Positions 50,687-54,806 of a stretch of DNA of 64,000 nucleotides are shown in pieces. The position numbers were made by a program, and so were the translations under genes. Each line of letters starts with the position of its first letter. Positions within the stretch are counted from its first letter, which is position 1. Origin of the DNA: Anaerococcus degeneri. Its GTDB lineage: Bacteria; Bacillota; Clostridia; Tissierellales; Peptoniphilaceae. The notes below the pieces were generated by a model. The model searched no databases, was not told the origin of the DNA, and was given only the letters and a program-made list of their open reading frames with translations. The DNA lies in contig NZ_JAGGLO010000001.1 in NCBI RefSeq assembly GCF_017874475.1, positions 558,001 through 622,000 on the forward strand, written 5' to 3'.

Positions 50687-51574
50687 TCACACCTTTTCTT
50701 TCTCTAATTTTCCAAATAAACCATTTGGTTGTACAAGTAAAACAACGATTAAAACTACAAATACTATGGCGTCTGCATAGGCACTTGATAGATAAGCTCT
50801 AGTTAAAACTTCGATTATACCAAGAATTAGACCACCAACTACAGCTCCTGGAATTAATCCAATCCCTCCTAAAACAGCTGCAGTAAAAGCTTTGATACCA
50901 AGCATTGACCCCATAAAGGGTTGAATTTGAGGATAGCTAGCCACATACAAAACTGATGCCACGCCTGCAAGAGCAGACCCTATAGCAAAGGTCAATGTCA
51001 TTACCTGATTTACATTTATCCCTACAAGTTCGGCTGCCCCATAATCTTCACTAACAGCAAGCATAGCCTTGCCATGCTTGGTTTTATTTACAAATAAACT
51101 AAGTACATAGGTCAAGAAAATTGTTGTAACTATAGTGATGATTGTAGCAAAAGAAAGGTGAACTCCCCCAAAATTTATAGAAAATTGTGGGAATATTGCT
51201 GGTATAGGTTTAGCACTTGAAGTGAATATTTTTACAAAAAAGTTCTGTAAAAATAAGGATACACCTATTGTTGTGATGAGTAAGGAAATTCTTGAAGAAT
51301 TTCTTAGGGGTTTATAGGCCACTCTCTCGATGACTACTCCTAGGATTGTACAAACTAAAATTGCAGGAATAATAGCCAACCATAATGGAAGGCCAGCCTT
51401 AAATAAAGGTAGTTGGATTGCTAAAAAAACAGTATAACCACCCACCATGATAATATCACCGTGGGCGAAATTTATTAATTTTGCAATTCCATAAACCATT
51501 GTATATCCAAGGGCTACAAGGGCATAAATACTGCCCAGCTGAAGCCCGTTAAACAATTGGGTTACAAAATCCAT
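50687..51574 (-). CDS. livH: Branched-chain amino acid ABC transporter permease LivH
   Basis: Partner permease of 295 residues with about eight hydrophobic segments. LGYTMVYGIAKLINFAHGDI near the N-terminus and AAELVGINVNQVMTLTFAIG (the coupling loop) identify LivH. Placed between livK and livM as usual. Confidence 0.95.
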   Translation of the reverse strand: MDFVTQLFNGLQLGSIYALVALGYTMVYGIAKLINFAHGDIIMVGGYTVFLAIQLPLFKAGLPLWLAIIPAILVCTILGVVIERVAYKPLRNSSRISLLITTIGVSLFLQNFFVKIFTSSAKPIPAIFPQFSINFGGVHLSFATIITIVTTIFLTYVLSLFVNKTKHGKAMLAVSEDYGAAELVGINVNQVMTLTFAIGSALAGVASVLYVASYPQIQPFMGSMLGIKAFTAAVLGGIGLIPGAVVGGLILGIIEVLTRAYLSSAYADAIVFVVLIVVLLVQPNGLFGKLEKEKV

Positions 51575-51593: not shown

Positions 51594-52784
51594 TTACTTG
51601 TTGGATTCAACCCCAAGATCGCTGTCAAATTTATATTCTCCATTTACTATTTTTATCATTTTTGCTGTTTTTATAGGGTTGTGATTTTCATCATATGTGA
51701 ATGATCCAGTTATACCATCAAATTTTATATTCTTTAGGGCTTCGATTACCTTATCCCACTCTGTTGTGCCAGCTTCTTCTGCTGCTTGTTTATATAGATA
51801 AACTGTATCGTAACCTTCTGCAGCAAAGGTTGATGGTTTTTCACCGTATTTTTCTTCGTAAGCTTTTATAAAGTTTTGAACTTTTTCACTTGGATCTTCT
51901 AGGGTAAATTGATTTGCAAAGTATGAACCTTCTATTGCTTTAAAGTTTGACTGATCCATTACAGATAAAACTGTATCCCAACCGTCAGCACCAACTAAGG
52001 TTGCGTCTATTCCAGCCTCTCTAACTTGTGGAACTATTAAAGCTACTTTTTCATAATAATCTGGGATAAATAATACATCTGGTTCTTCTTTTCTAACCTT
52101 TGTAAGCTGAGCTTTAAAGTCTGTATCACTATCTCCGTATGATTCATCAGCAACAACTTCCATGCCTAATTCTCCAGCTTTCTTGCTAAATACATCAGCA
52201 ACACCCATAGAAAAATCTGATGATTGGTTTCTTAGTATAGCTACTTTTTTAGCCTCAAGTTTGTTTTTAGAAAAGTTTGCAAGAACTTCACCTTGGAAAG
52301 GATCTGTAAAGCAAGTTCTAAAGGCATTTTTCTTACCTTCTGTTATGTTTGCTTGAGTTCCTGTTGGTGTGATAAATACAACTTCGTCCTTGGCAGCGGA
52401 TTCTGCTATAGCAAGTGATGGTTTTGATGGTACACCACCAAATATCGCTTCTACTTCATCTTGCATAAGGTTGTTGTAGTTTGTAACAGCGTCGGTTATT
52501 TCACCCTTGTCATCATATTCAGACCACTCAATTTGTTTTCCTAGGATTCCACCATTAGCATTTACTTCATCAATTGCTAGTTTTATACCATTATTTGTTG
52601 TTATACCATAAACTGAAACTTGTCCAGTTAATGGTGATGAGTTTCCTAGTTTTAAAGTTTCACTCGCTTCTTTCTTTGAACCTTCATCTGCTTTTTTGCC
52701 TTCATTTCCACCATTATTTGAGCAAGCTGTTAAAAACATACCTGCTAGTAACATTCCAACTGCTAATTTGTTTTTTAATTTCAT
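51594..52784 (-). CDS. livK: Branched-chain amino acid ABC transporter, substrate-binding lipoprotein
   Basis: Extracellular receptor of the importer. The signal peptide MKLKNKLAVGMLLAGMFLTA ends in a lipobox (LTAC), with lipidated Cys21. A low-complexity linker rich in Gly, Glu and Lys follows, then a type I periplasmic-binding fold (LGNSSPLTGQVSVYGITTNN, NLMQDEVEAIFGGVPS). At 396 residues it is typical of LivK/BraC. It is the first gene after the T-box leader and has an AGGAGG ribosome site. Confidence 0.94.
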   Translation of the reverse strand: MKLKNKLAVGMLLAGMFLTACSNNGGNEGKKADEGSKKEASETLKLGNSSPLTGQVSVYGITTNNGIKLAIDEVNANGGILGKQIEWSEYDDKGEITDAVTNYNNLMQDEVEAIFGGVPSKPSLAIAESAAKDEVVFITPTGTQANITEGKKNAFRTCFTDPFQGEVLANFSKNKLEAKKVAILRNQSSDFSMGVADVFSKKAGELGMEVVADESYGDSDTDFKAQLTKVRKEEPDVLFIPDYYEKVALIVPQVREAGIDATLVGADGWDTVLSVMDQSNFKAIEGSYFANQFTLEDPSEKVQNFIKAYEEKYGEKPSTFAAEGYDTVYLYKQAAEEAGTTEWDKVIEALKNIKFDGITGSFTYDENHNPIKTAKMIKIVNGEYKFDSDLGVESNK

Positions 52785-54580: not shown

Positions 54581-54605
54581 TTATTTCTCCTATTAAGTTA
54601 AAATA

Positions 54606-54651
54606 TTCCTTAGAATATTTTTTGCATAATGGCAAATAGAAATCCGCCACT
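54606..54651 (-). promoter_or_regulatory. Two successive hairpins in the mgtE leader
   Basis: After the leader peptide the minus strand forms ATAGTGGC/GCCATTAT (one G-U pair, twelve-base loop). A perfect AAAATATTC/GAATATTTT with loop TAAG follows, ending close to the mgtE ribosome site AGGAG. No M-box consensus was recognised. They could act as attenuator or anti-attenuator elements. Confidence 0.5.
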
Positions 54652-54654
54652 ATA

Positions 54655-54702
54655 CTAGTCTCTTATTTTCTTACACCTTCGATAGGGCGACGCCTTATCC
54701 AT
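54655..54702 (-). CDS. Leader peptide upstream of mgtE, 15 residues
   Basis: A 15-codon ORF, MDKASPYRRCKKIRD, ends in TAG 74 bases before mgtE. It has the strongest kind of ribosome site, AAGGAGGAG, two bases before its ATG, and a promoter upstream. The composition (Asp, Pro, then a basic cluster) is unlike a membrane peptide. Position and ribosome site suggest a regulatory leader peptide. I do not know a published family for it. MgtL of Salmonella mgtA is a functional analogy only. Confidence 0.6.
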   Translation of the reverse strand: MDKASPYRRCKKIRD

Positions 54703-54745
54703 TTCTCCTCCTTGATTTTAAAAGTTTTCATAAATAAAAATATTT

Positions 54746-54764
54746 TTATGTAAGATTTACATAA
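54746..54764 (-). repeat. Perfect inverted repeat in the mgtE leader
   Basis: TTATGTAA, three bases, TTACATAA, between the promoter and the leader peptide. It could be an operator or the 5' stabilising hairpin of the mRNA. Confidence 0.5.
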
Positions 54765-54777
54765 AACTTCCTTCAAC

Positions 54778-54806
54778 ATTATACATTTTTCGCAAGTTTT
54801 CTGCAA
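54778..54806 (-). promoter_or_regulatory. Promoter of mgtE
   Basis: On the minus strand TTGCAG (54801-54806), 17 bases, TATAAT (54778-54783). It directly abuts the stop codon of the HAD gene, and gives a leader of nearly 190 bases before mgtE. Confidence 0.7.

Follow-up and report, generated by a model that had tools for sequence, protein, structure and literature searches.

A candidate Mg2+-responsive leader-peptide attenuator upstream of mgtE in Anaerococcus degeneri and related Bacillota

The leader region of mgtE in the stretch of DNA analysed here (64,000 nucleotides of an Anaerococcus degeneri contig, hereafter the window) is, in our judgement, fairly probably a ribosome-mediated attenuator that would sense low Mg2+ by way of a short leader peptide. 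Across relatives we observed a conserved peptide start, conserved RNA structures that exclude one another, linkage to mgtE and, in some genomes, an M-box in tandem with the leader; we infer translation of the leader, Mg2+ as the signal, drop-off or pausing of the ribosome, and the direction of control. A leader-peptide regulator had been suggested in a preliminary description of this DNA, and the constrained start of the peptide together with the RNA alternatives conserved in relatives supports that reading at the level of sequence. The region comprises, in 5′ to 3′ order:

54806-54801, minus strand: −35-like hexamer TTGCAG, matching at three of six positions, with a 17-nt spacer to the −10
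54783-54778, minus strand: −10 hexamer TATAAT
54766-54744, minus strand: 5′ stem TTTTATGTAA/TTACATAAAA, adjoining the predicted transcript start
54713-54705, minus strand: Shine-Dalgarno sequence of the leader ORF, AAGGAGGAG
54702-54655, minus strand: SD-led ORF MDKASPYRRCKKIRD, 15 codons, stop TAG; candidate leader peptide
54655-54642 / 54637-54624, minus strand: hairpin 1, 14 bp (2:3, the proposed ON structure); segment 2 is the 5′ arm and segment 3 the 3′ arm
54636-54628, minus strand: stretch of segment 3, UUUGCCAUU, able to pair with the mgtE start (3:4, OFF)
54621-54613 / 54608-54600, minus strand: hairpin 2, 9 bp
54592-54587, minus strand: Shine-Dalgarno sequence of mgtE, TAGGAG
54581-54573, minus strand: segment 4, AAUGGCAGA, which includes the mgtE start codon
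54580-53255, minus strand: mgtE, Mg2+ transporter, 441 aa (Pfam MgtE, MgtE_N, CBS)

The gene downstream of the leader encodes MgtE, with the three Pfam domains each above cut-off. As first described, a 15-codon ORF lies between a promoter and mgtE in a leader of about 190 nt, counted from the predicted promoter, and its Shine-Dalgarno sequence (SD; AAGGAGGAG) is stronger than the TAGGAG of mgtE. The promoter had been called good, which fits the TATAAT and the 17-nt spacer but overstates the −35, and a strict promoter scan of the window left the TTGCAG/TATAAT pair off its list. By eye, TGTATAAT recurs at the −10 in L001-L005 (loci of the window's genus, L001 being the window), with TTGnnn about 16-17 nt upstream of it. 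The window leader folded better than 200/200 shuffled sequences (z −3.75). Both hairpins reported to follow the ORF were found, hairpin 1 beginning on the final base of the leader stop codon, but hairpin 2 stops 7 nt short of the mgtE SD and not at it. Among 12 genus leaders hairpin 2 occurs only in L001-L003, the window and its two closest relatives; it was rejected as a component of the switch on this ground and is probably accessory. Inverted repeats resembling the 5′ stem of the window are present in L002-L004, and the arms vary between species with complementarity kept by eye (TTTTATGTAA/TTACATAAAA, TTCTATG/CATAGAA and GCCTATA/TATAGGC in L001-L004). The predicted fold of L003 did not select its 5′ repeat; the 5′ stem of L001-L004 is perhaps an mRNA-protecting element. 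The Rfam check proposed beforehand returned zero families at gathering score for the window leader, and a permissive search of it gave matches far under cut-off, with SAM-II highest at 22 versus 44 bits. Extending the search to the leaders of the window and 16 related loci again yielded no Rfam family at gathering score.

We then followed the leader ORF through related genomes. The window's type of mgtE is present in 12/31 genomes of the genus (E up to 1e-150), and all of these loci carry a leader ORF (12/12), with peptides starting MDKASP, MDKAVP, MDNSSP, ME[NK]GGP, MDLSEP and MDKSGP. When the best SD-led short ORF upstream was picked blind to its peptide, an M[DE] start with proline at positions 5-7 was recovered at 12/12 genus loci, and from this the leader ORF is present beyond chance in the genus. 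Within the family, window-type mgtE was found in 37/130 genomes (E up to 1e-115), and 26 of the 31 loci read have a leader of the form M-[DE]-x-[SGA]-x-P (MDTSRP, MDASGP and MDSGDP among them). The leader ORF is absent from the other five (L195, L198-L201), where by eye a terminator-like hairpin lies directly 5′ of the mgtE SD instead (e.g. GGATTGAG...CTCGATCC, then a T run). Loci from other families of the order carried the leader in 63/71 cases, the remaining 8/71 lacking one by rule, with the consensus M-[DE]-S-[GSDE]-P-[LVI]-[PCS]. A first family set, made up chiefly of other mgtE types, was without a leader by rule at 30/44 loci.

Leaders were admitted by a rule requiring D or E at position 2 and P at position 5 or 6 (one exception, MESDD, was admitted), so constancy at these two positions proves nothing by itself. 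Without any peptide rule, D or E at position 2 was seen in 12/12 genus blind picks. Under a strict SD test outside the family, peptide-blind picking gave an SD-led ORF at 46/71 loci, of which 31 read M[DE]..P, six began farther upstream in the same frame (e.g. MKMDSGP) and nine lay in other frames. Those nine were mostly MISGFW..., a frame opened by an ATG 7 nt 5′ of the GTG and served by the same SD in many GTG-start leaders (e.g. L032-L038), so the start is uncertain in GTG-start leaders. The 77 leaders used below exclude duplicates (L016, L017, L022-L024) and L087, whose ORF (MESGNSS) lacks proline and lies at a distance of 264 nt, and L085 (TTG start, MESGPEPCC) and L117 (MESQSQTEYRSC, strong SD) were counted as without a leader. 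A redundancy filter (sequence ratio ≥0.90) reduced the 77 leaders to 62, and removal of nine from the window's family left 53 (alignment A1). One genus locus, L009, is an exception to the window-type model; its leader ORF has no early stop like those of its neighbours and extends across hairpin 1, ending 21 nt short of mgtE.

The start of the ORF evolves as a coding sequence. Over codons 2-7 of the 53 non-redundant other-family leaders, pS was 0.62 and pN 0.20 (pN/pS 0.316), and at codons 3, 4, 6 and 7, which the selection rule leaves untouched, pN/pS was 0.408. The ratio rose to 1.13 over codons 8-14 and 1.03 over codons 10-20, and reading codons 3-7 in the two shifted frames gave 1.18 and 1.46. 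Serine 3 is kept in 51/53 leaders, leucine 6 in 44/53 and proline 7 in 36/53, using several codons, and a second acidic residue occupies position 4 in 10/53. The window's family, with 18 non-redundant leaders, gave 0.51 over codons 2-6 (selected positions included) and 0.92 over codons 7-12; its Pro6 codons were CCC (13), CCT (4) and CCG (1). The window peptide itself has Asp2 as the single acidic residue before its last and a single proline. Stop positions ranged between 74 nt 5′ of mgtE and 59 nt into it (77 leaders), yet the leader start lies 95-125 nt from the mgtE start in 73/77, and this drifting stop with steady start spacing indicates that the first 5-7 codons are what counts for the ribosome. 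The preliminary description had named loss of the frame in relatives, with RNA structure kept, as one outcome that would speak against it; the frame is conserved (pN/pS 0.32, codons 2-7). The reading frame is under amino-acid constraint, so the leader is more than an RNA element, and by these ratios it reads as an SD-led short ORF constrained as protein.

The RNA alternatives are described first for families of the order beyond the window's own. There, segment 1 (leader SD and start) is complementary to a downstream segment 2. This segment coincides in part with the 5′ arm of a hairpin, and the 3′ arm of that hairpin, segment 3, precedes the mgtE SD (segment 4). On A1, helix 2:3 was 86% paired, with 60 cells changed on both sides versus 21.5 ± 3.6 in shuffles, and its slid versions reached at most 58%; helix 1:2 was 81% paired, with 58 such cells versus 21.8 ± 4.2, and its slid versions reached at most 56.5% (the shuffles do not remove relatedness, and the slid versions preserve it). 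The two helices share segment 2, are mutually exclusive and both covary in these families. Pairing of 1:2 fell at z<−2 in 57/77 leaders, and control SD-led short ORFs elsewhere showed 1:2-type pairing at z≤−2 in 7/164 cases. Pairing of 3:4 passed z<−2 in 29/77; it is the weakest link, since 34% of swapped partners equalled the median leader for 3:4, versus 9.5% for 1:2. Scarcely any covariation was found for 3:4 where the SD is fixed, and because the mgtE SD hardly varies, covariation is uninformative for segment 3 with that SD. RNAalifold on the 53-leader alignment returned chiefly hairpin 2:3 and two pairs inside the leader start and not 1:2, since 1:2 cannot form together with 2:3 and some leaders are shifted by one column. 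The helices were therefore tested one by one, 1:2 on the unedited alignment and the covariation of 3:4 with the shifted set realigned and a bulged base set aside.

The window's genus has a variant of its own. Hairpin 2:3 is predicted in 12/12 genus leaders (L001-L012), and 1:2 found no support in any of them (z −1.7 to +0.7). Pairing of 3:4 passed z<−2 in 7/12 (L005, L006, L008-L012), the window standing at −1.8. Throughout L001-L005, segment 3 can base-pair with the region of the mgtE start codon (UUUGCCAUU with AAUGGCAGA in the window), a pairing kept in L004 and, as GUGGCAGA with a GTG start, in L005. The predicted 3:4 helix of the window hides the mgtE start codon, and 2:3 and 3:4 are thereby modelled as alternative, mutually exclusive structures. 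By constrained folding with model energies, openness of the window's mgtE start was 0.72 ribosome-free, 0.77 with a ribosome at Pro6 and 0.50 with a ribosome at the stop. A ribosome at Pro opened the mgtE start more than one at the stop in 10/11 genus leaders (the exception being L010, with L009 outside the count), but exceeded ribosome-free openness in only 6/12. Across other families a ribosome at Pro raised mean openness from 0.50 to 0.56 (up in 48/63 leaders), and the modelled effect of ribosome position is modest. A scan also placed an intrinsic-terminator-like hairpin between leader and mgtE in 7/89 leaders (L185, L186, L187, L190, L194, L196, L197), which suggests a transcriptional instead of a translational platform in these seven relatives. 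An example of these hairpins reads CCGCTTAGACAGCGG, then a T run.

We propose that the strong SD would drive translation of the leader, whose first 5-7 residues (acidic 2, proline 5-7) would be hard for the ribosome. At low Mg2+ the ribosome would drop off or linger in the early codons, leaving segment 2 free to pair with segment 3 as hairpin 1, so that the mgtE start and SD would be exposed and MgtE made. With sufficient Mg2+ the ribosome would translate through to the leader's stop; covering segment 2 there in the window, it would leave segment 3 to pair with the start codon of mgtE, and less MgtE would be made. A ribosome leaving the window's leader at codon 5-6 would not cover segment 2. 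Other families would add 1:2, in which segment 2 pairs with the leader's SD and start, so that ribosome residence on the first codons would free 2:3. A counterpoint is that many other-family leaders stop next to or inside mgtE, where full translation could favour reinitiation.

The same RNA switch might instead answer another signal, such as prolyl-tRNA charging, EF-P or ABCF status, or a general slowing of translation, and we consider this unlikely, though a serious contender. Its appeal comes from proline 7, which was unselected yet is kept in 36/53 leaders, and from Salmonella mgtP, for which the parts of the report concerned give proline codons and charged tRNA-Pro as signals (PMC8092293). 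Those parts also have Salmonella mgtQ depending on its Asp/Glu codons and not on its Pro (PMC8092293). The linkage data likewise speak for magnesium, as 9/9 non-chance matches of the genome scan described below precede an MgtE-like ORF and an M-box stands in tandem with the leader in seven genomes.

The remaining readings dispense with the peptide as a sensor. Were the RNA alone a sensor of Mg2+ or another metal and the ORF incidental, covarying stable helices and a fold better than shuffled would be accounted for; against this, third positions vary and amino acids are kept at codons 3-7, which lie outside the helices, Rfam offers no family at gathering score for the window leader or its counterparts at 16 related loci, and the helices resemble simple switches in an alignment that by eye shows no further conserved pocket. 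On the pN/pS of 0.316 at codons 2-7 we judged an RNA-only element very unlikely. A constitutive translational booster, in which the leader loads ribosomes or opens hairpins without regulation, fits the many other-family leaders whose stop lies 10-20 nt 5′ of the mgtE start, a coupling distance, but requires neither conserved residues 3-7 nor a helix that sequesters the SD of the leader itself, and we hold it to be highly improbable. Least probable of all is a small protein of the same operon acting in trans (e.g. on MgtE): the ORF is conserved, has a strong SD and adjoins mgtE, but its constraint is limited to the first 5-7 codons with the remainder at pN/pS of about 1, its length is variable, and its stop may fall as far as 59 nt into mgtE. 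We therefore retain the Mg2+-responsive, ribosome-mediated attenuator as the preferred reading.

The M-box riboswitch (RF00380) controls mgtE-type genes by Mg2+. The preliminary description had recognised no M-box, and the covariance model indeed matched neither the window leader nor the window genome (under strict filters, which lose weak matches). The leaders themselves match no M-box, but in 7/80 genomes (G031, G038, G042, G058, G069, G084, G094) an M-box lies directly 5′ of leader and mgtE, and this tandem indirectly ties the leader-mgtE unit to Mg2+. Eight more of the 80 genomes have an M-box over cut-off elsewhere. A terminator-like hairpin was seen by eye between M-box and leader in L014, L018 and L027.

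A scan of named genomes with one form of the leader start, restricted to a 3-4 base gap and so missing leaders with one more base, gave 14 matches, nine of which are leaders 73-110 nt 5′ of an MgtE ORF (444-457 aa, by eye). These nine belong to Tissierella praeacuta, T. simiarum, T. pigra, Tissierella sp. P1, three Tissierellia assemblies, an uncultured Clostridia and an uncultured Haloplasmataceae assembly; the other 5/14 are chance matches, and no non-chance match precedes another kind of gene. Pairing of 1:2 was strong in the uncultured Clostridia leader (z −4.8) but reached only −1.8 in that of Haloplasmataceae. A phylum pattern search returned 0/398, which is not evidence of absence since only three genomes of the window's own order were drawn and the pattern misfits some leaders there.

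Other families of the phylum had an mgtE match in 51/80 genomes, and 50 upstream regions were read from 46 of them. SD-led ORFs of the form M[DE]x(0-3)[PDE] numbered 8 in 6.5 kb upstream of mgtE (MDPDLCRRC, MDGDSNRQ, MDVPWHPQ, MESEEGDYY, MDAEPGGL, METVPRQ, MDGNPCSRR and MESVPWRR), compared with one across 24 kb of far-upstream sequence, two across 123 kb of opposite strand and none across 33 kb within mgtE (binomial p 3e-10, which is optimistic because the pattern was picked after the candidates had been viewed). Most of the 50 regions are without such an ORF; candidates with a weaker SD include METDPGRS, MDADPSNE and MDSGPEGGL. Of 21 phylum candidates hand-picked by peptide, 16 reached z≤−2.0 for pairing of the 1:2 type (including two situated >340 nt from mgtE), as did only four of the eight patterned ORFs. 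Together, these data support but do not prove that the phylum-wide candidates form one class.

Attenuation by a ribosome on a leader ORF has precedents. In macrolide-induced leaders of the ermC type, a ribosome stalled on the leader ORF drives translational attenuation through four segments; the system described here shares the four-segment, ribosome-driven logic and differs in signal, peptide and gene. Nearer in function is mgtQ, the leader of mgtB in the mgtCBR operon of Salmonella, for which the relevant passages of the report describe mutants that reveal a 1:2+3:4 versus 2:3 logic with Asp2 and Glu5, codons that hinder leader translation, favour 2:3 over 3:4 and so release the mgtB ribosome-binding site (PMC8092293). 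As far as it is described there, mgtQ resembles our leaders in its short ORF with a strong SD, its Asp2, its 1:2/3:4 versus 2:3 segments and a 3:4 helix that hides the transporter's initiation region; that hindered leader translation turns the transporter on is likewise common to both, here as a proposal. On the same description mgtQ is enterobacterial, 8 aa long, has Asp2/Glu5 with Pro4, and serves mgtB, a P-type ATPase within an operon, whereas the leaders reported here belong to Bacillota, precede mgtE from its own promoter and start M-[DE]-x-[SGDE]-..P. The window departs further from mgtQ in having its mgtE start codon within 3:4 and no support for 1:2, and some relatives have an intrinsic-terminator-like hairpin. 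Because 1:2 fails in the genus and both gene and platform differ, we did not file the window leader as a member of mgtQ.

The preliminary description had likened the region to MgtL and mgtA; the leader-peptide kind is supported, but Salmonella mgtQ/mgtB is the closer match. MgtL, which leads mgtA in E. coli and Salmonella, is described in the portions consulted as having an EPDP start (Glu2, Asp4) that causes ribosome dissociation at low Mg2+ and as working through Rho-dependent termination, incomplete leader translation turning mgtA on (PMC11282234, PMC11552253). Our leaders share with it, on that description, an acidic and proline-bearing N-terminus and a downstream Mg2+ transporter, and differ in that the predicted switch acts on translation start or an intrinsic terminator. 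Acidic residue 2 is common to the leaders here, MgtL and mgtQ, and outside the window's family the leaders also share proline 5 with MgtL, so far as those sources describe the two peptides. The comparison with MgtL implies no sequence homology, and the window peptide, with weaker acidic and proline content than EPDP and with mgtE as its gene, falls outside the mgtL family. By analogy, the window may work like the mgtQ and mgtL leaders. A third system joins an M-box to a conserved small ORF, as in our tandem loci: in M. tuberculosis the M-box is followed by the uORF rv1805A, with proline 7 in most peptides and the pe20 operon downstream, and, in the sections of that report consulted, the switch targets the uORF and involves Rho-dependent termination, the role of the peptide is left open and no attenuator is proposed (PMC12810186). 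It differs, on that account, in its pe20 target and in a switch that acts on the uORF.

No report of a leader peptide controlling mgtE in Bacillota was found among the open-access papers listed (most subscription papers and preprints lay outside this scope), in keeping with the earlier remark that an mgtE version would be new for the group. We tentatively put forward, as nearly as likely as not, a Bacillota-wide class of mgtE leader peptides that would use the Mg2+ dependence of the ribosome as sensor, with an acidic/proline N-terminus, an SD paired with a downstream switch, a translational or transcriptional platform, and a role interchangeable with or stacked on the M-box. In the literature found, Mg2+ sensing by ribosome-destabilising nascent peptides is confined to enterobacteria. 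If true, the class would be independent of, or older than, enterobacterial mgtL/mgtQ and may be a common non-riboswitch route of Mg2+ sensing in Gram-positives; spread across many Bacillota families, it would make peptide-based Mg2+ sensing a general strategy and help account for mgtE control where the M-box is absent. The natural pairs (leader alone versus M-box and leader) could show why both are used, and variable peptides around a fixed core of 5-7 residues would be material for studying, in purified translation systems, ribosome failure at low Mg2+.

Several minor observations concern the mgtE loci and the rest of the window. A second mgtE copy at G041:C1:2174466-2175767, 84% identical to the query and interrupted by ten internal stops (one TGA, seven TAG, two TAA), is a decayed duplicate. 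On the 3′ side of the window's mgtE, a T-box leader (RF00230, 123.5 bits) lies at 53076-52842 on the minus strand, between mgtE and a pair of ORFs resembling a substrate-binding protein and a permease (51594-52784 and 50687-51574, function by eye), and a T-box is also found near mgtE in L004, L005 and L009. Farther off, a TPP riboswitch aptamer at 62620-62527 on the minus strand scored 55.4 bits against a gathering score of 54.3.
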